Assembly (NCBI RefSeq): GCF_039525035.1
Contig: NZ_BAAAHE010000011.1
Span: forward strand, 124,270-172,873
Reading direction: 5' to 3'
DNA: 48,604 bases
Source of the DNA: Sporichthya brevicatena
Lineage (GTDB): Bacteria; Actinomycetota; Actinomycetes; Sporichthyales; Sporichthyaceae
Below, in pieces: positions 8,986-43,099 of the stretch; positions within the stretch are counted from its first letter, which is position 1, and each line of letters begins with the position of its first letter. The notes beneath the pieces are model-generated. The model saw only the letters and a list, made by a program, of their open reading frames with translations, ran no database searches and was not told the DNA's origin. Made by a program: the position numbers and the translations under genes.

Positions 8986-9040
8986 GACCGTAGACGGGTT
9001 CTCCGGCCACCGGCTATCGCAACGCCGCACGCGCTATCCG

Positions 9041-9071: not shown

Positions 9072-9110
9072 GACGGGCGCACTCTAGGCCCGGTGGAAGG
9101 AGGAAGTCCT

Positions 9111-10166: not shown

Positions 10167-10183
10167 GTGTTCAGGAGGCCCGG

Positions 10184-10525: not shown

Positions 10526-10526
10526 G

Positions 10527-26960: not shown

Positions 26961-27935
26961 TCAGAACGACGAGACGCGGGGCAGCGCCGGCACCGACGAC
27001 GCGAGCCGGCCCAGCTGCGGCTGCAGCTGATGGTGCGACCCCAGCACGACGTCGAGGGTCCCCGTGTAGCGGACGAAGTGGTGGAACGGAAACTCCCACG
27101 TCATCCCCGTGGCACCGAGGACCTGCTGGCAGGCGGCTGTCACCTCGGCCGCGCAGCGACCGGCGGCCAGCTTCGCCAAATCCGCTGACCACAGATCGGC
27201 CGTCCGCCACGCTGTGGCCGTGAGCGCTGCTGCGCCTTCGATCTCCACGTACGCGTTGGCCAGGCCGTGCTGGACGCACTGGTTCGCCCCGATCGCACGG
27301 CCGAACTGGTGCCGTGTGGTCACGTGCTGGACGGCGATGTCCAGCATCTCTCGAGCCGCCCCGACCATCATCTGCGCGACGGCAGTCCGGGCGTAGGCGA
27401 GGGCGTCGACCCATCGCGATCCGTCGGGGCCGGCGGCTGCGATGCCGGCCGCGTCGAGCTCTCCACGGACCGTCGTGAGGCCGACCTCGTCGGACCAGGC
27501 ATCCCGCGGCCGGCAGTCCAGCCGTCCGGACTCCACCGGCAGGAGAGCTCCCGCGGACGAGCACCCGAAGAGGGCAGGCAGGAACAGGAGGTGGTCTCCG
27601 ACCGTCCCGAACGCGACACCCGCGACCGTGAGGACGTCACCCTCGCGGGAAGCCGCGAACGAGTCGCCCGACGGCGACCACGCGTCGGGCCAGATCACCT
27701 TCGACGTCGCCGGCAGGTCCAGCACACGTCGAACCGCGTCGTCGACGGCCTCGAGACCCGTCCGGGCCCGCCCGAGCTCGTCGAACAACAGCTCAGCCGC
27801 CTCCGTCGGATCCTCGGCAACGACGTCGTCCCACCCGAGATCCTCCAGAGCCGCACCGATGTCTGATCGCGCCTCGGCAGTCCGTGTGAGTTCACGCAGC
27901 CGCTCTCGCAGGAAGAGGGTCGTCTCGGTGTCCAT
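26961..27935 (-). CDS. Acyl-CoA dehydrogenase, short-type subunit
   Basis: A 324-residue dehydrogenase-like protein. Conserved C-terminal motifs are VTTRHQFGRAIGANQCVQHGLANAYVE and LGATGMTWEFPFHHFVRY. The T-W-E resembles that of the short subunit at 19271-20335. The WCQGFSEP flavin segment is missing. The ATG at 27935 is the first sensible start. The gene lies 8 nt after the long-type dehydrogenase at 27944-29143, which is its likely partner. Confidence 0.83.
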   Translation of the reverse strand: MDTETTLFLRERLRELTRTAEARSDIGAALEDLGWDDVVAEDPTEAAELLFDELGRARTGLEAVDDAVRRVLDLPATSKVIWPDAWSPSGDSFAASREGDVLTVAGVAFGTVGDHLLFLPALFGCSSAGALLPVESGRLDCRPRDAWSDEVGLTTVRGELDAAGIAAAGPDGSRWVDALAYARTAVAQMMVGAAREMLDIAVQHVTTRHQFGRAIGANQCVQHGLANAYVEIEGAAALTATAWRTADLWSADLAKLAAGRCAAEVTAACQQVLGATGMTWEFPFHHFVRYTGTLDVVLGSHHQLQPQLGRLASSVPALPRVSSF

Positions 27936-27943
27936 CCGCAGTC

Positions 27944-29143
27944 CTACCGTGGGAGCCCGAGCAACTGCTGGGCAACGATTGATCGTTGAACCTCGGCGAC
28001 GCCGCCGAGGATGGTGGCCGCCCGCGCGAAGTACCACGCGGACCGCCAGTAGGCCGCCCACTCACCGGATCCCGTCTCCACGGCGGGATGGAGCAGCCGT
28101 CGTGCACCGTCGGTCACGCACTGTTCCGCGCGGGACAGCAGCAGCTTGTCGATCGATGCCTCAGGGCCGAGCCGCGCGCCGGCCGCCAGGCGGCTCAACG
28201 TGCTCGCGGTGCGGGCACGAAGGGTACTGACCGCCGCGTACATCTCACCCAGCACCGCCGCCTCCAGATCACCGGGGGGACCGGGCATCTGATGGCGGAC
28301 CAACTCGACCCGGTGGTGAAGAACGGCTTGGCGCATCCAGGCGTACATGCCGCGTTCGAACTGCAGCAGGTACATCGCCACCTCCCAGCCCTTGCCGACC
28401 TCGCCGATCAGCCGGTCCGCGGGCACCTCCACGTCGTCGAGGAAGACCTCGCACAGGTGGTTCGCACCGGCGGCACTACGGATGGGATTCACGGTGATGC
28501 CTGGGGTGTTCATGTCGACCAGCAACATGGTCAGGCCGCGATGCCGACTTTCGGGCGTCCCGGTCCTGACCAGCAGGACGCACTTCGTCGACATCTGGGC
28601 GTTGCTGGTCCAGAGCTTCTGGCCGTTGACGACCCATCCCCCGGGACGCTCGGTCGCCCGGCAGCGCAGCGATGCGAGATCACTCCCGGCCTCCGGTTCC
28701 GAGAAGCCCTGACACCACATCTCGGCACCGGTGATCAGACCCGGAAGGTAGCTCACGGCCAGGTCCGGCGCATAGCGGAGGAGCGTCGGTCCGAGGATCT
28801 CCACGGGGTAGCAGCGCTCGGGCAGCACATAGCCGGCCGCCGCCAACTCGTCGTACACGACGCCGCGCAGCACCAGGTTGCCGCCGAGCCCACCGATCGA
28901 CTCCGGCCAGCCGATCAGTGACCAGCCGGCCTCCGCCAGCAGGAGCAGGAGACCGACGTGGAGTTCGTCCGCCTCCTCGTACGACGCCGGTTCCGGCTCG
29001 CGGTAGGGAATCAGCCGATCCGCGTTCGCCGCGAGCCACTCCCGGAACCACTCCCGCAGCTCGTCGGTACCGACTTCGTTCAACTTCTCCGGCTCCTGCG
29101 CCGGGGTGGGGCGCGTTCTCGGCGGCACTTCACTCATGGTCAT
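27944..29143 (-). CDS. Acyl-CoA dehydrogenase, long-type subunit
   Basis: A 399-residue dehydrogenase with MWCQGFSEPEAGSDLASL, VNGQKLWTSNAQMSTKC and the C-terminal ILGGVAEVQRSIVAQQLLGL. The last motif departs from the usual GTxEIQ (here GGVAEVQ). The ATG at 29143 overlaps the upstream SDR stop (ATGA); a second ATG at 29137 is equally in frame. It forms, with the following short-type gene, the third long/short pair of the region. Confidence 0.88.
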   Translation of the reverse strand: MTMSEVPPRTRPTPAQEPEKLNEVGTDELREWFREWLAANADRLIPYREPEPASYEEADELHVGLLLLLAEAGWSLIGWPESIGGLGGNLVLRGVVYDELAAAGYVLPERCYPVEILGPTLLRYAPDLAVSYLPGLITGAEMWCQGFSEPEAGSDLASLRCRATERPGGWVVNGQKLWTSNAQMSTKCVLLVRTGTPESRHRGLTMLLVDMNTPGITVNPIRSAAGANHLCEVFLDDVEVPADRLIGEVGKGWEVAMYLLQFERGMYAWMRQAVLHHRVELVRHQMPGPPGDLEAAVLGEMYAAVSTLRARTASTLSRLAAGARLGPEASIDKLLLSRAEQCVTDGARRLLHPAVETGSGEWAAYWRSAWYFARAATILGGVAEVQRSIVAQQLLGLPR

Positions 29144-29913
29144 GACGCGGCGACGAGCCCGCCGTCGACGGCGATCAGCGTGCCGTTGACGAAGGATGCT
29201 GCGGGTGAGAGGAGGAAGCACGCCACGTTCGCCGGCTCCTGCGCCAGGGCGGGACGGTTCATCGGATTGCGCCGAATCTGCTCCTGGTAGCCAGGGAGGT
29301 TGATCCACGACTCCGTGCGCGGCGTCAGGGTGTAGGAAGGAGCGATGGTGTTGGCCCTCGGCCGACCCCCTTCGCGGACCGCCAGATGGCGCGAGTACGA
29401 GGCGATCGCGCCCTTGGCCACCGGATAGAAGGACTGGACCAACGAGCTCCCGCCCCACCAGGTGCCCACGATCGACGAGGTGAACACCACGCTCTCCGCG
29501 TCCTCCGGGCACACCGTGAGCCAGGACTCGGTCACGTTGATCATGGCCCCGATCGCCCGCGAGACGCTGTCGATGATCGGCGCGTCGGTCACGCTGGCCG
29601 GCCCCGCGTTGTTGAACAGGTAGCGACAAGGTCCCGCTTCGGCCGCCTGCCGCCAAGCTCCTTCCACCGCCGCGGTGTCCGCCACGTCCACGATCGCCAG
29701 GTGGGCACGACCGCCCGCCGCCGTGATCTCCTCGACGACGGACTCGCATCCGTCCTTGTCCACGTCCCAGGCCGCGACGTGCACACCCGCCCGGGCCGCC
29801 GTGACCGCCGCCGCTCGGCCGATGCCACTGGCGGCACCCGTGACGACCAGCACCGCGTCCCGGTCGAAGCCGAGACCGGACATGTCCGGTGCCCAGTTCT
29901 CAGGTCGAGTCAT
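29140..29913 (-). CDS. Short-chain dehydrogenase/reductase (SDR)
   Basis: A 257-residue SDR. TGAASGIGRA binds the dinucleotide, and FNNAGPAS is the NNAG motif. The catalytic Ser lies in VFTSSIVGTWWGG and the Tyr-x3-Lys in SFYPVAKGA. The aspartate in AAWDVDKDG after the second beta strand suggests NAD+ preference. The C-terminus FVNGTLIAVDGG is canonical. The ATG at 29913 shares a base with the ligase stop (TGATG). It is in the same leftward run as a ligase and a dehydrogenase pair, so a hydroxyacyl-CoA is a plausible substrate. Confidence 0.9.
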   Translation of the reverse strand: MTRPENWAPDMSGLGFDRDAVLVVTGAASGIGRAAAVTAARAGVHVAAWDVDKDGCESVVEEITAAGGRAHLAIVDVADTAAVEGAWRQAAEAGPCRYLFNNAGPASVTDAPIIDSVSRAIGAMINVTESWLTVCPEDAESVVFTSSIVGTWWGGSSLVQSFYPVAKGAIASYSRHLAVREGGRPRANTIAPSYTLTPRTESWINLPGYQEQIRRNPMNRPALAQEPANVACFLLSPAASFVNGTLIAVDGGLVAAS

Positions 29914-31589
29914 CAGGACCCACCCCCGACCTTCGCCGGCGTGAACGTACGGCGCTCGATGACGAACCCCGCCGCCTCGCGGTCCCAGAGACCGTCGACG
30001 CCTTGGCGAAGAGCGAAGCGCTCGCGCAGCTTGTACTTCTCCACCCGTCCGACGGGGTTCCGAGGGAGCTCGTCGAGGATCCAGAGGTAACGCGGGATTG
30101 CGAAGTAGGGAATCTCCGCGACGCAGTGGTCCATGAGCGCGACCGGGTCGATCGACACCCCCGGCACCGGCACGACGCAGGCGATGACGTCGTCCTCCGT
30201 CAGCTCGCTGGGTGCCGCGACGACCGCGACCTCGGCGACGCCCTCGAACTGCATCACCGCGTGCTCCACCTCGAAGCTCGAGATGTTCTCCCCACGGCGG
30301 CGGAGGTAGTCCTTCTTCCGGTCGACGAACTCGAAGAAGCCCTCCTCGTTGAACCGGCCCAGGTCGCCCGTGTGCATCCACAGGTTGCGCCACGTCGCCG
30401 CGGTCGCCTCCGGGTTCTTGAAGTAGCCCTCGAACATGACGTGCGGTTGGTTGGGTCGTACACAGACCTCACCGACCTGCCCCGGCGGCACCTCGTTGTC
30501 GTTCTCGTCGAACAACCTGACGGTGAGGAGTGGGTTCGGTCGGCCGGAGTAGCCGGGGGGCGCGGGGTCGTGGGCCGAAGCCACCGTGAGCGGGTAGACC
30601 TCGGACTGTGCGTACATCTGAAGTACCGTCAGTCCGAATCGCTGCTCGAACTGGCGGTGGAGCGCCGGAGGCATCGGAGCGATGAGTGCCACCTTGAGCG
30701 GGTTGTCCGCGTCGCCGGGATCCTCCGGCCGGTTCCACAGCATCGTGCTCATGGCGCCGAGCAGGATCGTCTGATCCGCACCCGTTTCCCGTACTCGGCT
30801 CCAGAAGTTGTTGGGCGAGAATCGAGCGTCCAGGACAGCGGTGGCACCGGCGAGGATCGGCCCCAGGACGACGACACTGATCGCCGCGAGGTGGAACAAG
30901 GGAAGAGCGCCGTAGACGACCGAATCCTGCGTACAACCACGGAGGTCGAACACCTGACGAGCCGACCGGACCATGTAGTTGTGGCTCATCGCCACGCCCT
31001 TGGACGGACCGGTGGTGCCCGCCGTGAAGATGACCGCGGCGATCGCGTCGCCCGGCGGGTCGGCCACGCCGGGCACCGCAGTCAGATCTCCGTCGAAGCG
31101 GGCGGGGGTCATCAGTTCGGCGGAGTCGTGCACCTGCAGATCCGCGCGGCCGAGGTCGACCCGATCCGTACCCCGATTCACGACGACCACGTGCTTCAGG
31201 TCCGGCAGGCGCGTCGCCACGGCCGCCACTTCCGGGATGCACGAGCTGTCCACAACCGCGACACCGACCGCGGCCGTCGTCCACTGGTGGATGAGGAAGG
31301 TGCCCTTGTACTCGACGTTCACCGGCACGTACACGGCGCCGAGCATCGAGGCGCCGATCCACGTGTAGATCATCTCCGGCGTGTTCGGGGAGAGCACCCC
31401 GACGGAGTCACCGAAGCCGACGCCGAGCTCCTGGAGACCACGGGCCGCGGCCACCGATCGCTCGAGCAGCGCCTGGTAGCTGATCGATTCGCCGTTCAGC
31501 ACAAGGGCCGTCTTCGCCGGCGTGCGCACCACCTGCTCGCGCAGCACGGTCGGGATGCTCAACAAAGCCGTGTTCGACCAGTCCGTCAT
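29913..31589 (-). CDS. Acyl-CoA synthetase (AMP-forming ligase)
   Basis: A 558-residue ANL-superfamily ligase. The P-loop is FTAGTTGPSKG. The Y-x-x-S-E motif is MYAQSEVYPLT. GDLGRFNEEGFFEFVDRKKDYLRRRGENI is the hinge/lid region, and the catalytic Lys is in NPVGRVEKYKLRE. It resembles the CaiC/FadD17-like branch that activates carnitine-type or steroid side-chain acids. The ATG at 31589 has GAGGAGAG 8 nt upstream; a long upstream extension is non-coding in character. It is the first gene of the run 26961-31589, with an AT-rich palindrome 25 bp upstream. Confidence 0.92.
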   Translation of the reverse strand: MTDWSNTALLSIPTVLREQVVRTPAKTALVLNGESISYQALLERSVAAARGLQELGVGFGDSVGVLSPNTPEMIYTWIGASMLGAVYVPVNVEYKGTFLIHQWTTAAVGVAVVDSSCIPEVAAVATRLPDLKHVVVVNRGTDRVDLGRADLQVHDSAELMTPARFDGDLTAVPGVADPPGDAIAAVIFTAGTTGPSKGVAMSHNYMVRSARQVFDLRGCTQDSVVYGALPLFHLAAISVVVLGPILAGATAVLDARFSPNNFWSRVRETGADQTILLGAMSTMLWNRPEDPGDADNPLKVALIAPMPPALHRQFEQRFGLTVLQMYAQSEVYPLTVASAHDPAPPGYSGRPNPLLTVRLFDENDNEVPPGQVGEVCVRPNQPHVMFEGYFKNPEATAATWRNLWMHTGDLGRFNEEGFFEFVDRKKDYLRRRGENISSFEVEHAVMQFEGVAEVAVVAAPSELTEDDVIACVVPVPGVSIDPVALMDHCVAEIPYFAIPRYLWILDELPRNPVGRVEKYKLRERFALRQGVDGLWDREAAGFVIERRTFTPAKVGGGS

Positions 31590-32494: not shown

Positions 32495-33916
32495 GTGCAC
32501 ATCCCTACCGATCTCTTCATCGGTGGTACCTGGGTGGAGTCGCCCGATCGCGTCCCGGTCCTGGATCCGGCGACCGGGGCTCCCATCGCGAGCGTGTCCC
32601 TGGCCGGCGATGCTGACATCACGCTCGCGGTGGAGGCTGCCGCCGACGCGGCCGCACCCTGGGCCGCGACCCCACCCCGGGACCGGGCCGAGCTTCTCCG
32701 GCGCGCGTTCGAGCTGATGACCCAGCGCGGTCGCGCCCTGGCCGAACTGATCACGAGGGAGAACGGCAAGGTATTGGCCGATGCGCAGGCCGAGGTGACC
32801 TACGCTGCCGAGTTCTTCCGGTGGTTCTCCGAGGAAGCGACCCGCATCCGCGGCGACTACCGCCTGGCACCGTCCGGCGACAAGCACATCGTGGTGACCC
32901 ACGACCCCATCGGTGTTTCCCTGCTCGTCACACCGTGGAACTTCCCCGCCGCCATGGTCACGCGAAAGATCGCGCCGGCACTCGCCGCCGGGTGCACGGT
33001 GGTTCTGAAGCCGGCACTGGAGACACCTCTGACAGCGCTGGCCATCGCGGCCGTCCTGGAGGAGGCCGGCGTCCCCGCGGGCGTCGTCAACGTGGTTCTC
33101 GCCTCGCCCGCCGGGCCGCCGGTCCGCGCCATGCTCCGCGATGCGCGGGTGCGCCACCTCTCCTTCACCGGCTCCACCGGGGTGGGCTCGCACCTCCTCC
33201 GCGAGGCGGCGTCACAGGTGCTGCGCTGCTCGATGGAACTCGGCGGCAACGCGCCATTCCTCGTCCTGGAAGGTGCGGACGTGCGGGCGGCGGTCGACGG
33301 CGCACTGATCGCGAAGCTGCGTAACGGCGGTGCGGCCTGCACCGCGGCCAACCGGTTCTACGTCCACGAGTCGCTCGCCGCGGAGTTCACCGCGAACCTC
33401 AGCGCGGCGATGGCGAAGCTGCGTTGCGGCCCGGGGCTGGCCGGGGACTCGCAGCTGGGCGCGCTCGCGTCGCCGGGCGAGCGCGACAAGGTCGCAGCCC
33501 TCGTCGAGCAGGCGATCGCCGAAGGCGCTCGCCCACGGGCGGGTGCCCGGACGCCGGAGGGTCCGGGAGCGTTCTATCCGGCGACCGTGCTCGACGAGGT
33601 GCCCCGTGACGCCTCGATTCTCGGCGTCGAGATCTTCGGTCCGGTGGCACCGATCGTCACCGTGTCCGACGAGGACGAGGCGGTCGCTCTCGCGAACGGC
33701 ACGGAGTTCGGGCTTGCCGGCTACGTCTACGCCTCCGACATCGGCGCCGGGTTACGCGTGGCCGAGCGGCTCTCGTCCGGCATGGTCGCCGTCAACCGCG
33801 GAACCCTGTCGGACCCGGCGGCTCCGTTCGGCGGCGTGAAGCAGAGCGGACTCGGCCGCGAGGGAGGACTCGACGGCGTCCACGAGTTCCTGGAGACGAA
33901 GTACATCGCGGTCTGA
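32495..33916 (+). CDS. NAD(P)+-dependent aldehyde dehydrogenase (succinate-semialdehyde dehydrogenase-like)
   Basis: A 473-residue aldehyde dehydrogenase. The active-site Cys is C282 in NGGAACTAANRFYV. The general-base Glu is E248 in MELGGNAPF. VTPWNFP and FTGSTGVG contact the cofactor, and the C-terminal FGGVKQSGLGREGG is intact. The CTAANRF context is typical of succinate-semialdehyde dehydrogenases. Here it may oxidise an aldehyde released from the acyl chain. The GTG at 32495 has AAGGAG upstream. It follows the GntR-type gene and converges with the crotonase gene at 33923. Confidence 0.92.
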   Translation: MHIPTDLFIGGTWVESPDRVPVLDPATGAPIASVSLAGDADITLAVEAAADAAAPWAATPPRDRAELLRRAFELMTQRGRALAELITRENGKVLADAQAEVTYAAEFFRWFSEEATRIRGDYRLAPSGDKHIVVTHDPIGVSLLVTPWNFPAAMVTRKIAPALAAGCTVVLKPALETPLTALAIAAVLEEAGVPAGVVNVVLASPAGPPVRAMLRDARVRHLSFTGSTGVGSHLLREAASQVLRCSMELGGNAPFLVLEGADVRAAVDGALIAKLRNGGAACTAANRFYVHESLAAEFTANLSAAMAKLRCGPGLAGDSQLGALASPGERDKVAALVEQAIAEGARPRAGARTPEGPGAFYPATVLDEVPRDASILGVEIFGPVAPIVTVSDEDEAVALANGTEFGLAGYVYASDIGAGLRVAERLSSGMVAVNRGTLSDPAAPFGGVKQSGLGREGGLDGVHEFLETKYIAV

Positions 33917-33922: not shown

Positions 33923-34711
33923 TCAGCCGGCCGAACCGCTCTTCGTCAGGAACCGGCGGACGATCCGTTCGTGATCGTCGGTGTCGAAGGAGGCGAACTC
34001 CTCCGCGAGGGCGTACTCAAGGACCCCGGTCATGGCCCGCGAGAGATGCATGTTCAGGGCCTTCTTCGTCGTCCGCACCGCATGCGCCGGCTGCGCCGCC
34101 AGCCGTCCCGCGAGGGCGAGGGCCTCCGGCAACAGGTCCGCGCCGGGAACCGTACGGTTCGCGAGTCCGATCGCGACGGCCTCCGCGGCCGGGATGCGAT
34201 CACCTGTCAGGAGATACTCCTTCGCGCGGAGCAGGCTCATGAGCAACGGCCACGCCGGGGCCCCTCCGTCCGCGGCCGTGAGGCCGGCCGAGACGTGGGG
34301 GTCGGCCATGTAGGTGCCCTCGGCGATCAGGACGATGTCCGAGAGCGCCGCCAGGCTGCAGCCCAGACCGACCGCCGGGCCGTTCACCGCGGCGACGATC
34401 GGCAGCGGGAAATCGACCATCGCCAGCACCAGGCGGCGCGCGTTCTCGATCTCCTTGCGCCGCATGTGCACATCGGTCCGGCAGGCGGCCAGGTGATGCA
34501 TGTCGCCGCCGGCGCTGAAGGCGTGCCCGGCTCCGGTCAGCACGACGGCACGGGCCTCGGGATCGGCGCCGAGCGGCGACCAGACCTCGATGAGTGCGTC
34601 GTGCAGACGCTCGTTGCTGGCGTTGAAGGCGTCGGGCCGATTGAGCACGACCAGGCGAATGCCGTTGCCCCGATCCTCCACGAGGAGTTCGGGCTCGAAC
34701 TGTGCGTACAA
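33923..34711 (-). CDS. Enoyl-CoA hydratase/isomerase family protein, atypical active site
   Basis: A 262-residue crotonase-fold protein. The oxyanion-hole motifs VLTGAGHAFSAGGDMHHL and PIVAAVNGPAVGLGCSLAALSD are intact. Both hydratase glutamates are replaced: Ser at the E144 position (GLGCSLAAL) and His at the E164 position (ADPHVSAGL). It therefore probably catalyses another crotonase-type reaction. The start is TTG 34711 by conservation of the N-terminal strand (YAQFEPELLVEDRG); an internal GTG about 10 codons later is possible. It is a single leftward gene following the GntR-type gene at 34770. Confidence 0.82.
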   Translation of the reverse strand: MYAQFEPELLVEDRGNGIRLVVLNRPDAFNASNERLHDALIEVWSPLGADPEARAVVLTGAGHAFSAGGDMHHLAACRTDVHMRRKEIENARRLVLAMVDFPLPIVAAVNGPAVGLGCSLAALSDIVLIAEGTYMADPHVSAGLTAADGGAPAWPLLMSLLRAKEYLLTGDRIPAAEAVAIGLANRTVPGADLLPEALALAGRLAAQPAHAVRTTKKALNMHLSRAMTGVLEYALAEEFASFDTDDHERIVRRFLTKSGSAG

Positions 34712-34769: not shown

Positions 34770-35576
34770 TCACGTCAGGATGTCGAGCAACTTTTCCTCT
34801 CCAGCCGCACCGAACGCGTGGGCGGCCCCGTCCGCGAGGTGCTTGTCCCACAAGGCTTCCGCCGTTCCGGCGTCGCCGACGTCGATGAGCTCGATGAGTC
34901 GCCGGTGCGCCTCCGCGGCCGTGCGCGCAGCGAGCTCGGCGTCCGGGCCGCTCTCCCCCTGCGCCCGGGAGACGCCGGCCTGGTCGATGATCTCCTGGAC
35001 CAGCTGTCCGAGCAGAACCAGCGTGCTGTTGCCGGTCAGGCTCAGCAGGAGCTGGTGGAAGTCGTTGTGCCGGCGCGCGCGTTCCTCCGCGGTGAGCCCG
35101 GCTTCCTCCGCCGCCTCCAGCGCCCCGCGCAACTGGGCGATGTCGTCCGCCCGGCCCCGTCGAGCGAGCATGCGGACGCACGGCACCTCCAGAAGACTTC
35201 GTACCTCGCAGACGTCGGCCAGCGTGGTCCCCTGGTACTGCAGCAGCAGGCCGGCGTACCGAGCCGCGACCTCGCGCCGGGGAGCGCAGACCCGAGCCCC
35301 ACCGCGCGCGCCCCGCTGGATGACGATCAGGGACTCGGACTCCAACACCCGAAGCGCTTCCCGCAGGGTCGGACGGGACACCCCGTACTGCGACATCAGG
35401 GCCGCTTCCCCCGGCAGCGCCTCGCCCTCCGCCAACTCGTTGCGGATGATGCGCCGGCGCAGGTCGAGCGCGACCAGCTCCGCCATCTTGGGCAGGCGCA
35501 CACGCCGTTCGTCCTGGCTCGGCTCCGCCGCCGCCGTCGGCGTCGTCACGTCCTCTTCGACTGTGCCCACTTGCAC
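34770..35576 (-). CDS. GntR-family regulator (FadR/FCD type)
   Basis: A 268-residue regulator. The first about 27 residues are a flexible leader. The winged helix follows (LVALDLRRRIIRNELAEGEALPGEAALMSQYGVSRPTLREALRVLE). The FCD domain contains EVRSLLEVPCVRML, NDFHQLLLSLTGN and EAHRRLIELIDVGD. The GTG at 35576 gives the full frame. It is divergent from the aldolase/DUF35 genes and next to a crotonase gene, both of which it may control. It is only distantly similar to the other GntR-type protein of the window. Confidence 0.9.
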   Translation of the reverse strand: MQVGTVEEDVTTPTAAAEPSQDERRVRLPKMAELVALDLRRRIIRNELAEGEALPGEAALMSQYGVSRPTLREALRVLESESLIVIQRGARGGARVCAPRREVAARYAGLLLQYQGTTLADVCEVRSLLEVPCVRMLARRGRADDIAQLRGALEAAEEAGLTAEERARRHNDFHQLLLSLTGNSTLVLLGQLVQEIIDQAGVSRAQGESGPDAELAARTAAEAHRRLIELIDVGDAGTAEALWDKHLADGAAHAFGAAGEEKLLDILT

Positions 35577-35655
35577 CGCTTCCTCGGTCGCCTGGCGGCC
35601 CGGCCGCCGGGGTTCACCGGCGCCGGACGGTTGCGCGTCCTGGCCGACGATACCG

Positions 35656-35675
35656 TATAATTATCTAAATAGAAA
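35656..35675. promoter_or_regulatory. AT-rich element upstream of the aldolase gene
   Basis: An AT-rich stretch with the palindrome ATAATTAT (35657-35664), followed by CTAAATAGAAAAC, sits 20-40 bp before the aldolase start and in the divergent gap with the GntR-type gene. It is a plausible -10 region or operator. Confidence 0.4.
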
Positions 35676-35694
35676 ACGTCCTAGAAGGAGTTCG

Positions 35695-36831
35695 ATGTCG
35701 GTCGCTGTGGTGGGTATCGGACGAACCTCCTTCACCCGCGCGTCGGGCCGCACGACCCAGGCGATGGCCGTCGAGGCCTGCCGCGCCGCGATCTCCGACG
35801 CGGGGCTCACCGTGGCCGACGTCGACGGCTGGGCGAGCTTCCAGTACAACGACTCGACGATGTCGGGCGAGGTGGCCTGGGCCGCCGGCCGCGACGAGGT
35901 CGAGTGGGCGCCGACCCTGTTCGGCGGCGGTGACATGGCCGCGCAGGTCGTCCAGGACGCCGTCGCCGCGATCGAGTCGGGCCGCTGCCGAGCGGTGGTG
36001 GCCTTCCGTTCGCTGAACGGCCGGTCCGGCTACCGGTTCGGGACCGTGGCCAAGCAGCTCGAGGTCACCGGCAAGCATCAGTTCGACGCTCCGTCAGCAT
36101 TCCTGGTGCCTCCACAGTTCGTCGCCTCCTGGGCGCGCCGCTACCAACACACCTACGGCAGCACCGAACTCGACCTGGCCGCGGTGGCCGTCACCCAACG
36201 AACGCATGCCCAGGCTAATCCGCACGCCGCGATGCGCGAGCCACTGACCGTCGACGACTACCTCGCGAGTCGGTGGGTGTGCGACCCCTTCCGGGTCAAC
36301 GACTGCGCCTTCGAGGTCGACGGCGCGGTGGCCGTCGTCCTCGCCGGTGCCGAGCTCGCCCGCGGCTGCCGGCACACGCCGATCTGGTACCGAGGTGGTT
36401 CCGGTTCCTGGAGCGGTTCGGGGTGGACGACGTGGGACGACATGACGTCGATGTACTCCCGCTCGGCCGGCCCTCGCCTGTGGCAGCGGACGGGATTCAC
36501 GCCGGCCGACGTCGACGTCGCCTGCATGTACGACTGCTTCACCTACACGGTGCTGGCAACGCTTGAGGACTACGAATTCTGCGAACGCGGGCAAGCTGGC
36601 GCCTTCCTGAGCGAAGGACGCGGCACTCACGGCGGGGACGTCGTGGTCAATCCGCACGGCGGCTTGCTCTCCGAGGGGTACATCCACGGCATGAACCACC
36701 ACTACGAAGCAGTCCTGCAGCTCCGCCGCGAAGCCGGCGAACGTCAGGTCCAGGACGCGTCGGTCGCCCTGGTCAGCGCGGGCGCGGGGCCGTTCGGCGG
36801 GGCCCTGATCTACAGCCGGGAGGCGGCGTGA
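35695..36831 (+). CDS. Thiolase-fold lipid-transfer protein, Ltp2-type aldolase
   Basis: A 378-residue thiolase-fold protein without the usual catalytic Cys (the region reads LFGGGDMAAQVVQDA). Instead it keeps Y279 in MYDCFTY and Y329 in GYIHGMN, 50 residues apart, the same separation as Tyr294 and Tyr344 of the steroid side-chain aldolase Ltp2. NPHGGLLSEGYIHGMN is the family's most conserved block. Ltp2 cleaves a hydroxyacyl-CoA side chain by retro-aldol reaction, releasing propionyl-CoA, and requires a DUF35 partner, which is encoded immediately downstream. The ATG at 35695 has AAGGAG 4 nt upstream. The same chemistry on an unknown substrate is likely here. Confidence 0.85.
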   Translation: MSVAVVGIGRTSFTRASGRTTQAMAVEACRAAISDAGLTVADVDGWASFQYNDSTMSGEVAWAAGRDEVEWAPTLFGGGDMAAQVVQDAVAAIESGRCRAVVAFRSLNGRSGYRFGTVAKQLEVTGKHQFDAPSAFLVPPQFVASWARRYQHTYGSTELDLAAVAVTQRTHAQANPHAAMREPLTVDDYLASRWVCDPFRVNDCAFEVDGAVAVVLAGAELARGCRHTPIWYRGGSGSWSGSGWTTWDDMTSMYSRSAGPRLWQRTGFTPADVDVACMYDCFTYTVLATLEDYEFCERGQAGAFLSEGRGTHGGDVVVNPHGGLLSEGYIHGMNHHYEAVLQLRREAGERQVQDASVALVSAGAGPFGGALIYSREAA

Positions 36832-37262
36832 CCAGCACCTTGGACCAGTCGACCGACCGGGGGCCGCTCTGGCCGTTGCCGATCCCGGACCCGGACACCC
36901 GGGGGTTCTGGGCCGCCACCGCGCAGGGCGTGCTCGCCGTGTGTCGGTGCCTGGACTGCCGTCAATGGATTCACGCGCCGCTGGAGCGCTGCCGGACCTG
37001 CATGGGTCCGGTGGAGTTCGCCCCGGTGAGCGGTCGGGGCACCCTCCACACCTGGATCGCGGTGAACCGGCAGGCCGTGCCGGGACCCGACGTGCCCTAC
37101 CTGGTCGGCGTGGCCGAACTGGAGGAGGCGCCGTCGATCCGCATCACCGGGGTGCTGCGGACGGCGACCGACCTACGCCCGCAGGTCGGCATGCCCGTGA
37201 CGATCGGCCTGGAACCGACCGCGGCCGGCGACTTCGTCGCTCCGGTCATCCTGCCGGCTTGA
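36828..37262 (+). CDS. DUF35 OB-fold/zinc-ribbon protein, aldolase partner
   Basis: A 144-residue protein with a rubredoxin-like zinc ribbon (C41-x2-C44 and C55-x2-C58) followed by an OB fold (GRGTLHTWIAVNRQ, PYLVGVAELEE, VTIGLEP). DUF35 proteins bind thiolase-fold partners and help position acyl-CoA; in steroid degradation the DUF35 domain of ChsH2 forms the Ltp2 aldolase complex. The GTG at 36828 overlaps the aldolase stop by 4 nt (GTGA), which suits an obligate complex. Its end overlaps the convergent pentapeptide gene by 17 nt. Confidence 0.9.
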   Translation: MTSTLDQSTDRGPLWPLPIPDPDTRGFWAATAQGVLAVCRCLDCRQWIHAPLERCRTCMGPVEFAPVSGRGTLHTWIAVNRQAVPGPDVPYLVGVAELEEAPSIRITGVLRTATDLRPQVGMPVTIGLEPTAAGDFVAPVILPA

Positions 37263-38154
37263 CGTCGTCCGCCAGCATCGCCAGCAGAGGCAGCGCCCGG
37301 CGAGCGTTGCCGCACCCTGCCATCTCCTGATCCAGGGTCGACCCCACGTCGGCGCGTTCGCCCAGCAGCGCGGCGGCATCGACCCGACGGGGCAGGCGTT
37401 GCCGGCTCCACTCGTCCATCGCACTGGGCGCCAGGACGACGACGCGCTCCAACCCCCGCGCCTCGCCCAGATCCGACCGCAACACCACGACCCCACCGAA
37501 CCGGGCGTCGTCGAAGCGGGACCGCGCGAACGTGCACCCCCGAAAGACGACGCCCACCAGAAGGGCACCCCCGAGGTCCGCTGCGCCCAGGTCAGCGCCG
37601 TTGAAAGTGGCCTCGAGCAGATCAGCCCCCGTCAGATCGGCACCGACGAACCGGGCTCCCCACGCACTGACGTTGGACAGCCGAGCGTTCGCAGCCGTGA
37701 CGTGTGCGGCGTCGGCACCGTCCAGTACGGCACCGACCAGGGAGGCGCCGGTCAGATCCGCGCGCCGCAGGTCGGCGCCCGAAAGGTTGACCGTCCTCAG
37801 TTCCTGACGATCATTCAGAACCGATGCCCACCCCACGGAGGCCACGCGCAGCACCGCGTCGGTCAGGCTGGCCGACGCCAGGTCGGCCCCCTGCAGATTG
37901 CACCCACTCAGGTCGGCGTTGCTGAGGTCGGAGAAGGAGAGTTCCGCTCCTCGCAGGTCGGCGTCGCGGAACACCGCTCCGGACGCTGCGATGCCCTCCC
38001 CGTGCGCACAGGCGTTCCGGAGATCCGCCTTGGTCAGGTCAGCACCGGCCAGCAAGGCGCCACTGAGATCAGCGTCCCGCAGGTTCGCGCCCACCAGGTC
38101 GGCGCCGCGCAGATCCGCGCGCCGCAGATCAACCCCCCGCAGATCCGCGCTCAT
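37246..38154 (-). CDS. Pentapeptide-repeat protein
   Basis: A 302-residue protein. Residues 1-225 are dense A(D/N)Lxx pentapeptide repeats (for example ADLRGVDLRRADLRGADLVG), interrupted near residues 48-60 and 105-120. This predicts a right-handed quadrilateral beta helix. The last 75 residues (LERVVVLAPSAMDEWSRQRLP to the end) are not repetitive. There is no signal peptide. The ATG at 38154 overlaps the stop of the Rieske gene upstream (ATGA), so it is the last cistron of the oxygenase operon. Pentapeptide proteins can mimic DNA or act as protein scaffolds; here a scaffold or resistance role is only a guess. Confidence 0.9.
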   Translation of the reverse strand: MSADLRGVDLRRADLRGADLVGANLRDADLSGALLAGADLTKADLRNACAHGEGIAASGAVFRDADLRGAELSFSDLSNADLSGCNLQGADLASASLTDAVLRVASVGWASVLNDRQELRTVNLSGADLRRADLTGASLVGAVLDGADAAHVTAANARLSNVSAWGARFVGADLTGADLLEATFNGADLGAADLGGALLVGVVFRGCTFARSRFDDARFGGVVVLRSDLGEARGLERVVVLAPSAMDEWSRQRLPRRVDAAALLGERADVGSTLDQEMAGCGNARRALPLLAMLADDVKPAG

Positions 38155-39041
38155 GCCGTCGTGGAGACCCGATCGCCGGACTCCCCGATCGGCGAGGACT
38201 CCAGGTCCGCACGCCAGGCCCGGAATGACCGCAGCGGCTCCTCCCCCGACCCGCCAGGCAGGGGTTGGTAGGCCATGTCCGCGACCAGGCCGAGGATTCG
38301 ATCCATCGCGCGGTCCGACGCACGCGCATCACCGGTGATCGCCGTCAGGATCCGCACCGTGTCGTCGACCACCGGGAGGATGGCGACCGTGAGTGACCAA
38401 CCCGGCCCGACGACGACACCGGTGGCCACGTCGAGGACAGCCGTCCGGACCGCCGCACCGTCGTCGCGTCGGTACTCGACCTCGAAGCGGGTGTCCGAGC
38501 TGGTCGGAACCCCGGCGAGATCGATCTCGCCGCCGGCGAGGAATCTCAACAGCGCCGGATCGACCAGCGCTTCGAGGATCAGCCGCGGGTCGGCGACGAG
38601 CTCGCGCGTGACCCAGGCCCGAGTCGCGTCGTTCGGAAGGTCCGGCGCCGGCCGCTGCGGTTGCGGCTGGTCGGCCGAACCGGAGTACCACAGGAAGACC
38701 AGCCCACCCTGCTCCGCGACGGTCCAGGGACGGATCCGCCGGCCGCGGTGCGTACGGCTGTCGTAGGGGATGTCGGTGTTCTCGCCGGCCGGCGACCACG
38801 CCCACCCGTGGTAGAAGCACCGCACGTCCTCACCACAGACGCGCCCGTTGTAGCCGAGGTGCGCTCCGAGGTGCTGACAGAAGGCGTCCAACGCATGCAG
38901 CTCACCGGACTCACCACGCCACAGGACCAGTTCCTTGCCCTGGACGCGGAGGGGAATCACTCCACCGACGGGCAACTCGGACAGCACGGAGACCGGCAAC
39001 CACCCGCGCAGTACCGCGCCTCCACTCGCCACCGTGGTCAT
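38151..39041 (-). CDS. Rieske oxygenase-like protein A: intact [2Fe-2S] site, degenerate catalytic iron site
   Basis: A 296-residue homologue of KshA/VanA-type Rieske oxygenases. The Rieske domain is complete: C55-x-H57 and C75-x2-H78 (FCQHLGAHLG, RCFYHGW). In the catalytic domain the segment that should read E-N-x2-D-x2-H-x4-H reads EALVDPALLRFLA. D161 is kept, but the two iron-binding His align with L164 and A169. The C-terminal ligand region (D-x2-I-W in the third homologue) is not recognisable. It should carry a redox cluster but no mononuclear iron. The ATG at 39041 overlaps the next Rieske-like gene (ATGA). It may donate electrons across a subunit interface to protein C (45436-46437); alternatively it has become a ferredoxin-like carrier. 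Confidence 0.87.
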   Translation of the reverse strand: MTTVASGGAVLRGWLPVSVLSELPVGGVIPLRVQGKELVLWRGESGELHALDAFCQHLGAHLGYNGRVCGEDVRCFYHGWAWSPAGENTDIPYDSRTHRGRRIRPWTVAEQGGLVFLWYSGSADQPQPQRPAPDLPNDATRAWVTRELVADPRLILEALVDPALLRFLAGGEIDLAGVPTSSDTRFEVEYRRDDGAAVRTAVLDVATGVVVGPGWSLTVAILPVVDDTVRILTAITGDARASDRAMDRILGLVADMAYQPLPGGSGEEPLRSFRAWRADLESSPIGESGDRVSTTA

Positions 39042-39928
39042 GCGCGCCCGATCCAGGTACGAACGACAGCGAGACCCGATCGCCGGGCCGGAACGACCCG
39101 CTCCTGGTCCCGGCGAACGGCCGCGACCACCTCCGCGAGCCGCCCCGCCATCCCGGCCCAGTCGGCACCACCACCCCAGGCACAGGTCCGGAGCTCCAGC
39201 GACTCGTCGGCTCCGGTCGGAGTCGTCCCGATCAAGGCCCCGCCGCTGTTGTGGCCGGTCGCCGAGACCGACATCAGCAGCGTGCCGAACGCGCGGACGT
39301 CAACGGTGCACTCCGGTCGTCGATCAACCGCGAACTGAAGGTGCAGAACGTCGTCGGTCGCCACCGGCACGCGAGGTTCTCCGGTCACCCCGACCCCGAG
39401 GACGTAACTCAAGGTGCAGGGGTCCGCGAGGGACTCGAGCACCGCCAGCGGATGGCTGGCCACGGCCCGCGTGGTCGGCCGGGAGATCCATGCTTCGGGC
39501 GACGGGAGGCGCGGAACGTCCGGAGGCACCCGTTCCCCGCCGCACACGAGCACAAGTCCGTGCACCTCCGTGACAGCGTGGTGGCGGAGAACCAGCCCTG
39601 GTTCGGATCGGTGGACGACACCGCTCGGCTCCGTGGCCGAGCCGTCGAACGACCACAACCAGCCGTCGACCGAGGACCGGATGCCGGTCGGCTCCACCGA
39701 GCCGTCCGTCAGGGGGTACCCCCGTCGGGGGCACCGGCGGTCGGCCGCGCGGACATGCCCGTCGGCGTCGCGATACAGCAGCAGATCCATCCCCTCCACC
39801 CGCGTCGGGACGAGGGCTCCCGCGACGACGTCGTCCGACCAGGCCGCCGCGATCCAGTTGCTTGCCGAGCGCCTCACCGGGACCTCCGCCTGGGGAGTCA
39901 CCGGGTCGACGGGAGCCGGCGCACCCAT
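39038..39928 (-). CDS. Rieske oxygenase-like protein B: both metal sites degenerate
   Basis: A 296-residue homologue of the two other Rieske-type proteins of the window. In the Rieske domain only C66 of the four ligands remains: His is R68 (CPRRGYPLTDG), the second Cys is S85 and the second His is D88 (IRSSVDGWLW). In the catalytic domain the iron motif reads ESLADPCTLSYVL. The bridging Asp (D169) is kept, but the His positions are T172 and L177. It should bind neither a [2Fe-2S] cluster nor iron. The fold-defining residues around the lost ligands (RGYPLTDGS, DGWLWSFDG) are conserved, so the reading frame is under selection as a structural subunit. The ATG at 39928 shares a base with the aldehyde dehydrogenase stop (TGATG); an ATG at 39937 is also in frame. 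Confidence 0.85.
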   Translation of the reverse strand: MGAPAPVDPVTPQAEVPVRRSASNWIAAAWSDDVVAGALVPTRVEGMDLLLYRDADGHVRAADRRCPRRGYPLTDGSVEPTGIRSSVDGWLWSFDGSATEPSGVVHRSEPGLVLRHHAVTEVHGLVLVCGGERVPPDVPRLPSPEAWISRPTTRAVASHPLAVLESLADPCTLSYVLGVGVTGEPRVPVATDDVLHLQFAVDRRPECTVDVRAFGTLLMSVSATGHNSGGALIGTTPTGADESLELRTCAWGGGADWAGMAGRLAEVVAAVRRDQERVVPARRSGLAVVRTWIGRA

Positions 39929-41433
39929 CACGGCCATTCGGAACCGACCAATCCGTACGGCCGGCAGTCGAGGTCGTTCTCGTCCAGGCTCGTGTAGACG
40001 TGCTTCATCTGGGTGTACTCGAGCATCCCTTCCGGACCCCACTCGCGGCCGAATCCGCTCTGCTTGTAACCCCCGTAGGGCGCCGGCGCCAGAACTCCGT
40101 ACGTGTTGATCCACACCGTCCCGGCCTGGATCCGGCGCGCCACGGCGCGGGCCGCGAGCGTCGAACCCCAGACGACCGCTCCGAGTCCGTACCTCGTGTT
40201 GTTGGCCAGGGCGACACCCTCCTCGACGGTGTCGTAGGGCAGCACGACAAGCACCGGACCGAAGACCTCCTCCTGGGCGATCTCCATGTCGGGCGTCACG
40301 TCGGTGAGCACCGTCGGTTCGAAGAACCACCCGTCCGCTCCGTCGACGACGGCGCGCCGGCCCCCGGTGAGGACCTTCGCGCCCTCGCTCACCGCTCGCT
40401 CCACCATCGCCTCCACGCGGAGGCACTGCTGCTCGGAGATCAGCGGGCCGACGTCGGTCGCGAAGTCCTCGGCGGGGCCGAGCTTCAGCGCCTCCGTGCG
40501 CTTGCGGACCAGGTCTACTGCTACGTCGTAGAGACCGGAGGGCACCAGGAGCCGGGTGGTCGCGACGCAGGCCTGCCCGGCGTGCATGAACGCGGCGAAC
40601 AACGTGCCACGGACGGCCAGTTCCAGGTCGCCGTCCGGCAGCACCAGACTCGGGGACTTGCCCCCGAGCTCCAACGTCAGCCGCTTGACGGTGGGCGCCG
40701 CCGCCGCCATGACACGCGATCCGACCTCCGTGCTGCCCGTGAAGCTGATGTGGTCGACACCCGGATGCGCGACCAGCGCCTTGCCCGCCTCCTGGTCCCC
40801 GTGCACCAGGTTGACGACCCCGGCCGGCACGCCCGCTGCCTCGCAGGCACGGACGAACTCGACGCTGGCGAGCGGCGTCAGCGGCGAAGACTTGATGACC
40901 ACCGTGTTCCCCATCAGGATCGGCGGAACGACCTTCCAGATGGTCATCAGCAGGGGGAAGTTGAAGGGGACGAAGCCGGCGCAGACGCCGACCGGCTCGC
41001 GCAGCACGTCACTCTGACCGACGGCCGGAGCAGTCACGATCGGTCCGGACTTGACCTCCTCCAGCAGGCCCGCCCACTCCGCCATGTCACGGACCATCCC
41101 GATGGGGGTACCGGTCTGCATGAGGCCGGACAACCGCGCCGGGCAGCCGGCCTCGCGCGGGATCAGCTCGTCGAGCACCGGCAGGCGGGCCTCCAACTCG
41201 GCCGCGAGTCGCAGCACGACGTCGCCTCGGGCGGCCGCACTCAGACGGGGCCAGGGGCCTTCGTCGAACGCTCGGCGAGCCGCTGCCACGGCCGCCGCGA
41301 CGGTCTCGACATCGCTGTCGGGAACCTCGGCGATCGGCGTCAGGTGGGACGGATCGACAACGGGAATCCAGTCTCCGCTGCCACCGTCCACCCATTCGCC
41401 GTCGATGTAGTTCAAGGCGCGGGTCGAGCTCAT
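39928..41433 (-). CDS. NAD(P)+-dependent aldehyde dehydrogenase
   Basis: A 501-residue aldehyde dehydrogenase with C289 as nucleophile (HAGQACVATTRLLV) and E255 as base (LELGGKSPS). VPFNFP is the cofactor motif (PF instead of the usual PW), and FTGSTEVG and GGYKQSGFGREWG are intact. The GQACV context is that of general aldehyde and betaine-type enzymes. The ATG at 41433 overlaps the SCP2-like gene by 4 nt. Within this operon it probably oxidises an aldehyde produced by side-chain cleavage or by hydroxylation at a terminal carbon. Confidence 0.92.
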   Translation of the reverse strand: MSSTRALNYIDGEWVDGGSGDWIPVVDPSHLTPIAEVPDSDVETVAAAVAAARRAFDEGPWPRLSAAARGDVVLRLAAELEARLPVLDELIPREAGCPARLSGLMQTGTPIGMVRDMAEWAGLLEEVKSGPIVTAPAVGQSDVLREPVGVCAGFVPFNFPLLMTIWKVVPPILMGNTVVIKSSPLTPLASVEFVRACEAAGVPAGVVNLVHGDQEAGKALVAHPGVDHISFTGSTEVGSRVMAAAAPTVKRLTLELGGKSPSLVLPDGDLELAVRGTLFAAFMHAGQACVATTRLLVPSGLYDVAVDLVRKRTEALKLGPAEDFATDVGPLISEQQCLRVEAMVERAVSEGAKVLTGGRRAVVDGADGWFFEPTVLTDVTPDMEIAQEEVFGPVLVVLPYDTVEEGVALANNTRYGLGAVVWGSTLAARAVARRIQAGTVWINTYGVLAPAPYGGYKQSGFGREWGPEGMLEYTQMKHVYTSLDENDLDCRPYGLVGSEWP

Positions 41434-41819
41434 GTCAGCTCGATCGTCGTCATCGTGTCGATGATGTACTTGAACGCGCTCATGTTCTTGAGCAGCGTCG
41501 ACATCTTCCCCTTGACGCTCAACTGACCACGCGTCAAGGCGATGGTCGGGTCGATCGTCTTGGTCAGCACCCCCCGCCAGACCTCGCCGTCCCCACTGAT
41601 GACGAAGTCGGCCTGGATGTCGCCACGCGACTCGAGTTCGCGAACTTCGCTGACACGACCCTTCTCGTAGCGGACGAAGAACGCCTTGTCCACGGGGGAT
41701 CCGTAGTCGTAGACCATGGTGTAGGTGATGTCGACGCCTTGCATCCCGGTCCACTCGGGATCGGCGTTCAGCGCCCGCGCCATTTCCTCGTACACCTCGA
41801 CGGTGCCGAACTGCGCCAT
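41430..41819 (-). CDS. SCP2-like sterol/lipid-binding protein
   Basis: A 129-residue protein resembling SCP2 domains: an N-terminal helix pair, beta strands (DITYTMVYDYG, AFFVRYEKGRV, QADFVISGDGEVWRGVL) and a C-terminal hydrophobic helix near LSVKGKMSTLLKNMSAF. SCP2 domains bind sterols, fatty acyl-CoA and similar ligands. The ATG at 41819 has AAGGAGG 6 nt upstream. It is coupled to the aldehyde dehydrogenase gene. It may solubilise or present a hydrophobic substrate to the oxygenases of the operon. Confidence 0.82.
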   Translation of the reverse strand: MAQFGTVEVYEEMARALNADPEWTGMQGVDITYTMVYDYGSPVDKAFFVRYEKGRVSEVRELESRGDIQADFVISGDGEVWRGVLTKTIDPTIALTRGQLSVKGKMSTLLKNMSAFKYIIDTMTTIELT

Positions 41820-41860: not shown

Positions 41861-43099
41861 TCAGACCGTTTCCAGGAGAAGTTCCGTGTGACCACGGACC
41901 GCCGACAGATGACGGACGGGCGTGGTGCCGGGCTGAATTCGGTAATTGGGCATCAGCCGATGCCACTCGCGCAGAGCGATCCGGAGTTCTAGGCGCGCGA
42001 CGTGGGAGCCCAGGCAGCGATGTGCTCCAGCCCCGAAAGCGATGTGACGGTTGGGATTCCGGGAGAAGTCGATTGAGCCCGCGTTCGGGAACTGGTCCTC
42101 GTCGCGACACGCGGAACTCATCATCAGCAGGACTCGGTCGCCCTCGCTCATGTCGACCCCGCGGATTGTCACGTCACGCGTCAACCGGCGACCCGGAAGC
42201 ACCGGGGCAAACCAGCGGAGTAGCTCCTCGACGGCGGAATCGATCCGTTCCGGGTGCTCGACGATCTCCCGCCGGTAGTCCTCGTGGGTGGCCAGGAACT
42301 CCATACTCATGCTCAGGACGCCTTGAACCGTGTCGAGGCCGGCGATGAGCACGATGAAGATGCAGTCGAGAATCTCGAACGTGCTCAGAGGCCGTTCGTC
42401 ACCGAACGAGGCGCTGCGAAGCCAGTCGATGAAATCGCGGCCCTCAGAGGTGTTGGGCGGACCCAGCTCCTCCCTGCGGTCCAGCTCCTCGGCGAAGTAC
42501 GAGACGAGTTCGAGAGCCGTCGCCTCCTTGATGCGCGCCGACTCCTCCGGATCGTCGGAAGGCTGACGCATCAGCTTCTCGGTCCACTCAAGGAACCGGG
42601 GCGCGTCCTCGAGCGGCCATCCCATCATGTCCAGGAACACCCGCGTGGGGAGCACCTGCGCGAAATCCTTGACGTAGTCGCAGGAGCCCTTCGCAGCAAT
42701 CTCGGCGACGAGCGCTTCGGCATGTTCCTGAATCTTGGCCTCCAGGGGACGCACCCGCCTGACCGTGAAAAGCGGGGCGAGAATCTCCCGGTACTTCGCG
42801 TGGTCCGGAGGGTCGATCTCGACCGGAATCACCGGGCGAGCGCTGCCGATTCCGTTGGCCGGGATCGGGTTCGGGTACGACGAGAACAGCTCCGGCTCCT
42901 GATAGGCACGGAAGACGTCGTCGTACTTCGACAGCATCCAGAAGCCGCCGTAACGTTCACTCTTCGCGACCGGGCAGCGCTCGCGCATCCGGTCGAAGAG
43001 GGCGTCCGCACCGCCCTGGACGTCCTCGTTCCAGTAGTGGAACTGAGAGATCTCGGGATCGTCGGACCCGACGTTCATTTCGGCGACACTTTCAGTCAT
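41861..43099 (-). CDS. Cytochrome P450 monooxygenase
   Basis: A 412-residue bacterial class I P450. The heme signature FGAGAHRCLG contains the axial Cys C362. The E-x2-R pair is E292/R295, and the I-helix reads IAGLDTV (residues 252-258; the second Thr of the usual DTT is Val). All core elements are present and the length is normal. The ATG at 43099 overlaps the ferredoxin stop by 8 nt. It is expected to hydroxylate a C-H bond of the pathway substrate with electrons from the adjacent ferredoxin. Family number cannot be assigned by eye; CYP125- or CYP142-like identity is not evident. Confidence 0.93.
   Translation of the reverse strand: MTESVAEMNVGSDDPEISQFHYWNEDVQGGADALFDRMRERCPVAKSERYGGFWMLSKYDDVFRAYQEPELFSSYPNPIPANGIGSARPVIPVEIDPPDHAKYREILAPLFTVRRVRPLEAKIQEHAEALVAEIAAKGSCDYVKDFAQVLPTRVFLDMMGWPLEDAPRFLEWTEKLMRQPSDDPEESARIKEATALELVSYFAEELDRREELGPPNTSEGRDFIDWLRSASFGDERPLSTFEILDCIFIVLIAGLDTVQGVLSMSMEFLATHEDYRREIVEHPERIDSAVEELLRWFAPVLPGRRLTRDVTIRGVDMSEGDRVLLMMSSACRDEDQFPNAGSIDFSRNPNRHIAFGAGAHRCLGSHVARLELRIALREWHRLMPNYRIQPGTTPVRHLSAVRGHTELLLETV

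Follow-up and report, generated by a model that had tools for sequence, protein, structure and literature searches.

A thiolase-fold retro-aldolase candidate with a stand-alone DUF35 partner in Sporichthya brevicatena, in a clade separate from Ltp2 and Sal

Background

Ltp2-ChsH2(DUF35) of Thermomonospora curvata (PDB 6ok1) is the aldolase of the cholesterol C3 side chain, and its ChsH2 component is, as we take it, a fusion of MaoC and DUF35. In TcLtp2, according to PMC12329534, Y294 is the base, Y344 is the acid and His296 lies in the oxyanion hole. The same paper describes CtSal as using Y302 and C304 (motif YDCY), with Gln352 at the position of TcLtp2 Y344. CtSal belongs to Sal-Shy(DUF35) of Comamonas testosteroni (PDB 9myr), the aldolase of the bile-acid C5 side chain.

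An Ltp2-type pair outside steroids is already known: IpfD/IpfE, the ibuprofen retro-aldolase of Rhizorhabdus wittichii (plasmid pIBU218, L106), is likewise an aldolase with a stand-alone DUF35 protein. The literature on ibuprofen degradation places a CoA ligase and a dioxygenase before this retro-aldolase.

The aldolase-DUF35 gene pair

We analysed 48,604 nucleotides of contig NZ_BAAAHE010000011.1 of Sporichthya brevicatena (the window). An aldolase candidate, P0001, and a DUF35 protein, P0002, are encoded next to each other and are divergent from a regulator gene:

35695..36831, plus strand: P0001, thiolase-fold retro-aldolase candidate of 378 aa (ORF, Pfam, PDB match, fold)
36529-36531, 36535-36537 and 36679-36681, plus strand: codons of the P0001 active-site residues Y279, C281 and Y329, respectively
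36828..37262, plus strand: P0002, stand-alone DUF35 protein of 144 aa with a zinc ribbon (C41/C44/C55/C58) and an OB fold, presumed obligate partner of P0001
35577..35694: intergenic region that separates the divergently oriented GntR and aldolase genes, with a ribosome-binding-like site, AGAAGGAG, just 5' of the ATG
34770..35576, minus strand: GntR/FCD regulator, transcribed away from the aldolase operon and starting with a codon at 35570 or 35576

The ORF positions bore out the coordinates given in an earlier note on this DNA, together with the overlap of 4 nt between the two ORFs, and the pair is real and looks intact. The same 4-nt overlap was found in seven of the 12 relatives checked with a simple gene caller, and the other five had gaps of 29-98 nt. 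P0001 matched Pfam Thiolase_C_1 with 131 bits, and P0002 matched OB_ChsH2_C with 38 bits, while zf-ChsH2 stayed slightly below its cut-off (22.5 vs 23.2 bits). A search for a GntR operator in the aldolase promoter gave one 10-nt GC-rich inverted pair within 35577..35694, which was not convincing. The last 17 nt of the DUF35 gene are shared with a gene for a pentapeptide-repeat protein on the opposite strand (37246-38154, minus).

Active-site residues

The best PDB sequence match of P0001 was TcLtp2 (6ok1_A, 226 bits), with 36% identity. As in Ltp2, there is a Tyr in a YDxF motif and a second Tyr in EGYIHG/EAYIHG, and the nucleophilic Cys is lost. In the alignment Y279 falls in the column of TcLtp2 Y294 (YDHF) and Y329 in the column of Y344. 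The P0001 motif is YDCF, and C281 replaces the oxyanion-hole His of Ltp2. IpfD also differs from P0001: it carries YDHF and GEAYIHGMN, and the identity is 37%. Sal shares Tyr-Asp-Cys (Tyr302/Cys304) and a DUF35 partner with P0001, but has Gln352 where P0001 has Y329. In these aligned residues P0001 thus combines the Tyr-Cys of Sal with the second Tyr of Ltp2.

The earlier note had called Y279 and Y329 a catalytic pair from their separation of 50 residues. The assignment agrees with the alignment, but the spacing is weak evidence, because a Tyr pair exactly 50 apart was present in 1532 of 5000 shuffles of P0001 (31%); it is the homologous columns that carry the claim, and spacing as proof of a catalytic pair was rejected. 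The thiolase Cys had also been reported as absent, which holds for one of two positions: the nucleophile column (Cys in SCP2 thiolase) is G79 in P0001, but C281 preserves the other catalytic Cys, that of HDCF. P0001 thus lacks the catalytic set of SCP2 thiolase (nucleophilic Cys, HDCF and GH), having G79, YDCF and GY instead. Because the nucleophilic Cys is Gly, no thiolytic cleavage would be expected.

Structure model

The AlphaFold2 model of P0001 had a mean pLDDT of 84.6 and a pTM of 0.88. It was weak in the loop 119-133 and at 322-328 (322-324 and 326-328), where pLDDT was mostly below 50; this second segment lies beside Y329, so the active-site geometry is uncertain. The closest folds were 6ok1 (Z 48.0, rmsd 2.1 over 356 residues), 4u4e (44.3) and CtSal (43.1), and in the profile comparison Ltp2-ChsH2(DUF35) was top with 475 bits vs 287 for the next. 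Foldseek and VIA-align score all thiolase folds high, so the fold alone cannot separate aldolase from thiolase.

Phylogeny and distribution

A scan of genome contigs gave orthologues at 56 loci, with 52-71% identity in the best segment. They were found in Mycobacterium, Mycolicibacterium, Williamsia, Pseudonocardia, Frankia and Acidimicrobiia, and on single contigs labelled Pseudomonas, Myxococcota, Phycisphaerae and Acidobacteriota. The residues Y279, D280, C281, F282 and Y329 were conserved in 56 of 57 clade sequences, a figure that is somewhat overstated because the scan was driven by six peptide patterns favouring conserved motifs, two of which (CMYDCFTY and HGMNHHYE) cover these very motifs. 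In the sole exception (L103, from Frankia sp. QA3) the gene has a frameshift, by decay or sequencing error; the orthologue of Williamsia limnetica (L066) has one in-frame stop at residue 309, of the same two possible origins. P0001 itself is atypical at D80, where 53 of the 54 other sequences with a residue there have Asn.

The careful tree had 81 rows, including 26 of the 56 orthologue loci, picked for spread and full length. Paralogues were taken from 54 sequences that passed at least 300 aligned query positions, leaving out copies of loci already in the tree. P0001 fell in a clade of 28 rows with support of 100/100, separate from a clade of Ltp2 and IpfD (6 rows, 100/100), and each of the two had one origin in 100% of 200 bootstrap trees. 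CtSal, which paired with L139 (100) in a quick tree, lay outside the P0001 clade. The end branch of P0001 is long (0.5), which makes it an odd member of its own clade. A third group, three plasmid-borne copies from Novosphingobium EMRT-2 (L108), Bosea F3-2 (L109) and Sphingopyxis macrogoltabida (L111), formed its own clade (100/100). These have YDCF, the second Tyr and an adjacent DUF35 gene like P0001, but at most 46% identity to it, and are annotated as acetyl-CoA acetyltransferase or hypothetical protein. In the quick tree the P0001 clade, this trio and L110 adjoined the group containing Ltp2, with SH-aLRT of only 89.

YDCF with the Tyr was present in 31 of the 81 rows, namely the 28 of the clade and the trio. 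A paralogue in the same genome (L043) has YDCY plus Tyr, and YDC plus Tyr is therefore not limited to the P0001 clade. Another active-site class, YDGF/Arg, was seen in 12 of the 81 rows.

In the region of Mycobacterium triplex that contains KshA-like and Ltp2 genes (L148), copies resembling Ltp3/Ltp4 are without the motifs and far off in the tree, with long branches; their naming (Rv3523/Rv3522-type) is our assumption from gene order. Against NCBIfam NF005892 (PRK07855), which we take to be the Ltp2 model, P0001 scored 327 bits with a curated cut-off of 469, and no other copy in its genome reached the cut-off either. In M. triplex, M. peregrinum and Williamsia sp. 1138 a clade member coexists with an Ltp2 encoded at another place, no more than 100 kb from HsaC; around this Ltp2 in M. 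triplex there are genes that by eye resemble Ltp3/Ltp4, KshA and HsaF/G. The phylogeny against Ltp and Sal proteins that the earlier note had proposed thus places P0001 outside the Ltp2, Ltp3, Ltp4 and Sal clades. The name Ltp2-type fits in so far as the Y294 and Y344 columns are matched, but the motif is YDCF and not YDHF, the clade is its own and the DUF35 protein stands alone. That P0001 is the cholesterol Ltp2 orthologue was rejected because of the tree, the motif, the three genomes that have a true Ltp2 besides a clade member, and the absence of HsaA and HsaC.

At E <= 1e-100 the gene was present in two of 60 genomes (own and relatives), its own and G045, of the same class, with 54% identity. 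It was missing at this threshold from the two other same-genus and two same-family genomes examined, and the aldolase gene is therefore accessory in the Sporichthya lineage. Window synteny with same-genus and same-family genomes consisted of scattered family-level matches only (about 63-82% identity among those listed), which gave no clean boundary of an insertion.

Several orthologues are surrounded by further thiolase-like candidates for aldolases, some of them next to DUF35 genes (G001:C2:241-364 kb, G002:C11, G003:C1 and G004:C1:5.75-5.89 Mb). The first of these is the region of the M. triplex clade member, with six further thiolase-like matches. In Pseudonocardia parietis, genes that look MCE-like by eye adjoin these candidates. 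The genome of S. brevicatena itself has 22 thiolase-like or Ltp-like matches in 5.2 Mb, with DUF35-like neighbours at several (L039, L041, L042, L045). No paper on a YDCF-plus-Tyr clade came up in literature searches, whose scope did not extend to Murdoch and Hay or to the first structure paper on Ltp2.

DUF35 partner and zinc ribbon

A DUF35 gene was found within 2.5 kb of the aldolase gene in 57 of 61 loci, and the other four contigs end 2-116 bases past the aldolase match. The partners are stand-alone, with at most 60 residues beyond the match, and no MaoC hydratase fused to DUF35 was found among those examined, which sets them apart from Ltp2 and from Sal, where DUF35 is fused to MaoC. The aldolase stop was directly upstream of DUF35 in all 13 cases measured, and the long open frames upstream of DUF35 partners would overlap the aldolase gene in a different reading frame.

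The zinc ribbon of P0002 is of the C4 type (C41-x2-C44-x10-C55-x2-C58), while that of the Sal partner is a C3H1 zinc finger. The C4 ribbon was kept in 29 of 58 proteins (P0002 and 57 partners). It was gone in all partners labelled Mycobacterium, Williamsia or Pseudonocardia, 26 having CTST and 2 CTSS instead (L050, L054-L070, L072, L073, L075-L078, L087, L097, L104, L107), and one Novosphingobium partner also lacks it (SASS).

Steroid genes in the window and genome

The following genes surround the pair in the window:

26961..29143, minus strand: acyl-CoA dehydrogenase (ACAD) pair, genes 26961-27935 and 27944-29143
29913..31589, minus strand: acyl-CoA ligase
32534..33916, plus strand: aldehyde dehydrogenase
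33923..34711, minus strand: crotonase-fold protein, both canonical hydratase Glu positions missing, possible pathway partner
38151..39937, minus strand: two adjacent Rieske-domain genes, 38151-39041 and 39038-39937
39928..41433, minus strand: aldehyde dehydrogenase
41430..41819, minus strand: SCP2-domain (sterol-carrier-like) protein
41861..43078, minus strand: cytochrome P450
43300..44124, minus strand: SDR oxidoreductase; in 15 of 35 long loci the orthologue has within reach a gene of at least 45% identity to it
44136..45299, minus strand: acyl-CoA dehydrogenase
45436..46437, plus strand: Rieske oxygenase whose C-terminus is of the 3-ketosteroid-9-hydroxylase type (KshA_C domain, 74.5 bits with a cut-off of 23.3)
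46467..47174, minus strand: SDR oxidoreductase; L073, L075 and L076 have genes of 53% identity to it close to the orthologue

The ACAD at 27944-29143 is 49% identical to genes beside the orthologue in L089 and L096. Farther away, look-alikes of NiFe hydrogenase and its maturation cluster were seen at 4439-11360, as in L033 (by eye, from N-termini only).

The earlier note had found no HsaA-D, KstD or KstR-type genes in the window. Genome-wide, HsaA and HsaC are indeed absent: in the genome of S. brevicatena, which is 99.5% complete, the HsaC model gave at best 68 bits and the HsaA model 27 bits, with a cut-off of 450 for each. The positive controls worked, HsaC being above its cut-off in three of five other genomes and HsaA in three of three. 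But the surroundings are not free of steroid-catabolism-like genes: the KshA_C oxygenase, the P450, the SCP2-domain protein, paired ACADs and ligases are all in the window, and three KshA_C proteins in the genome, including that at 45436-46437, were above cut-off. No steroid cluster was seen on the left flank of the contig (120 kb, N-termini scanned by eye); on the right, the contig ends at the edge of the window. Clear orthology to steroid Ltp proteins with steroid genes nearby, which the earlier note had named as counter-evidence to its reading, was not found, because P0001 lies outside the steroid Ltp and Sal clades and HsaC and HsaA are missing genome-wide.

Source of the beta-hydroxyl

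Neighbourhoods were counted over all 56 loci and over the 35 of at least 19 kb. Near the orthologue, ACADs were found in 24 of the 35 long loci, P450 in 16, Rieske genes in 6 and crotonases in 6. Oxygenase genes were present in only 19, and neither oxygenase nor crotonase in 13. Four MaoC hydratase seeds had no match in the 56 loci. The three crotonases of the window each lack at least one of two Glu residues at what we presume are the canonical hydratase positions, and that at 33923-34711 lacks both. The idea that the gene across the divergent promoter is the hydratase is weakened, since neither canonical Glu position is retained.

We lean slightly to a beta-hydroxyl made by an oxygenase, by analogy with ibuprofen degradation, over one made by a hydratase, because the DUF35 protein is stand-alone, no MaoC was found near relatives and the window crotonases lack the canonical Glu pair. 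An oxygenase-fed substrate fits the neighbourhood data but is far from proof, and ACADs in 24 of 35 loci fit a route of dehydrogenation and then hydration at least as well.

Some further genes recur in these neighbourhoods. A protein of about 122 aa, EthD-like by eye and with no Pfam match, is encoded near the orthologue, often immediately before it (L073:7309-7677, with similar ones in 28 of the 56 loci); it was at least 45% identical to the seed in 22 of the 35 long loci. A double-length ACAD (about 700-735 aa, two units per chain) is often directly upstream of the orthologue (L073:7772-9979 and similar), and an AveC-like (PF17198, spirocyclase-like) protein was seen at L050:13223-13960 and in 13 other loci.

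Proposed function and alternatives

We consider it fairly probable that P0001-P0002 is a DUF35-dependent thiolase-fold retro-aldolase of a subfamily apart from Ltp2 and Sal, with a substrate that is probably not a classical steroid. Retro-aldol chemistry with a DUF35 partner, which the earlier note had proposed, is the best-supported function. A beta-hydroxyacyl-CoA would bind at the thiolase/DUF35 interface and Y279 would take the proton of the beta-hydroxyl. The bond between C-alpha and C-beta would then break to give a ketone or aldehyde and an acyl-CoA enolate, and Y329, or the Y279-C281 dyad, would give the proton back, with release of acetyl- or propionyl-CoA. The cyclic ketone or aldehyde that had been named as substrate is thus to be replaced by the class of beta-hydroxyacyl-CoA, the ketone or aldehyde being the product.

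Could P0001 simply be a steroid side-chain aldolase, a stand-in for Ltp2 or Sal whose ring genes are divergent or elsewhere in the genome? Its closest solved relative is TcLtp2, and the KshA_C proteins of genome and window, with the SCP2-domain protein, P450 and paired ACADs, would suit this. However, HsaC and HsaA are absent with the controls working, P0001 is outside the Ltp2 and Sal clades, mycobacteria retain a separate Ltp2 linked to HsaC, and the left 120 kb of the contig showed no steroid cluster by eye; we regard a steroid role as quite improbable. The substrate is probably not a steroid of the classical 9,10-seco pathway, and from the separate branch and a genome without the ring-breakdown markers HsaA and HsaC, a short acyl chain is probably cut from a molecule other than cholesterol. 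A terpenoid- or polycycle-like acyl-CoA would fit the P450, Rieske, dehydrogenase and ligase neighbours. The earlier note's idea of a possibly novel substrate stands, but use outside steroids has a precedent in IpfD/IpfE.

Chemistry other than aldol cleavage is also conceivable, as a DUF35-dependent acyltransferase of Claisen/Friedel-Crafts type (PhlC-like) or an activity like the malonyl-CoA decarboxylase reported at low rate for TbSLP. The same fold with a DUF35 partner does other chemistry in PhlABC, BbsAB and the HMG-CoA-synthase-bound thiolase, and the TbSLP motif is also YDCF. Yet the nucleophilic Cys of P0001 is Gly, Y329 occupies the position of the acid Tyr of Ltp2, and sequence, fold and tree all put P0001 nearest to the Ltp2/IpfD aldolases, so this is unlikely. 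Within the retro-aldolase explanation, and overlapping it, the enzyme may be fed strictly by a hydratase, in the order ACAD pair, separate hydratase and aldolase, as in cholesterol side-chain removal. It is favoured by the frequent ACADs near orthologues, by the ACAD pairs in the window and by the crotonase gene that immediately precedes the related pair in Novosphingobium (L108) and Sphingopyxis (L111). Against it are the lack of DUF35-MaoC fusions among the partners examined, the unmatched MaoC seeds, and the loss of one or both canonical Glu (positions as we presume them) in each of the three window crotonases. We give this variant real weight, though short of an even chance.

Meaning of the finding

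The P0001 group is a new subfamily of an already known kind of enzyme complex. With considerable doubt, we speculate that it may be a third DUF35-dependent thiolase-fold retro-aldolase family with a composite Tyr-Cys-Tyr site, distributed in Actinomycetota and on scattered contigs labelled Pseudomonadota, Myxococcota, Planctomycetota or Acidobacteriota, and acting on side chains of non-steroid polycyclic or terpenoid molecules with a beta-hydroxyl made by an oxygenase. The zinc-less partners in mycobacteria, Williamsia and Pseudonocardia, and the position of the gene among other aldolase candidates, might then reflect an uncharted degradative programme beside cholesterol catabolism.

PMC12329534 links side-chain length to which catalytic residues are used, Tyr-Cys as in Sal or Tyr-Tyr as in Ltp2. 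A clade holding both residue sets would be a direct test of this idea, because single substitutions could shift it either way. The clade may mark a catabolic route in many mycobacteria that runs parallel to cholesterol catabolism, and P0001-P0002 is a possible biocatalyst for the cleavage of acyl chains at hydroxylated carbons.
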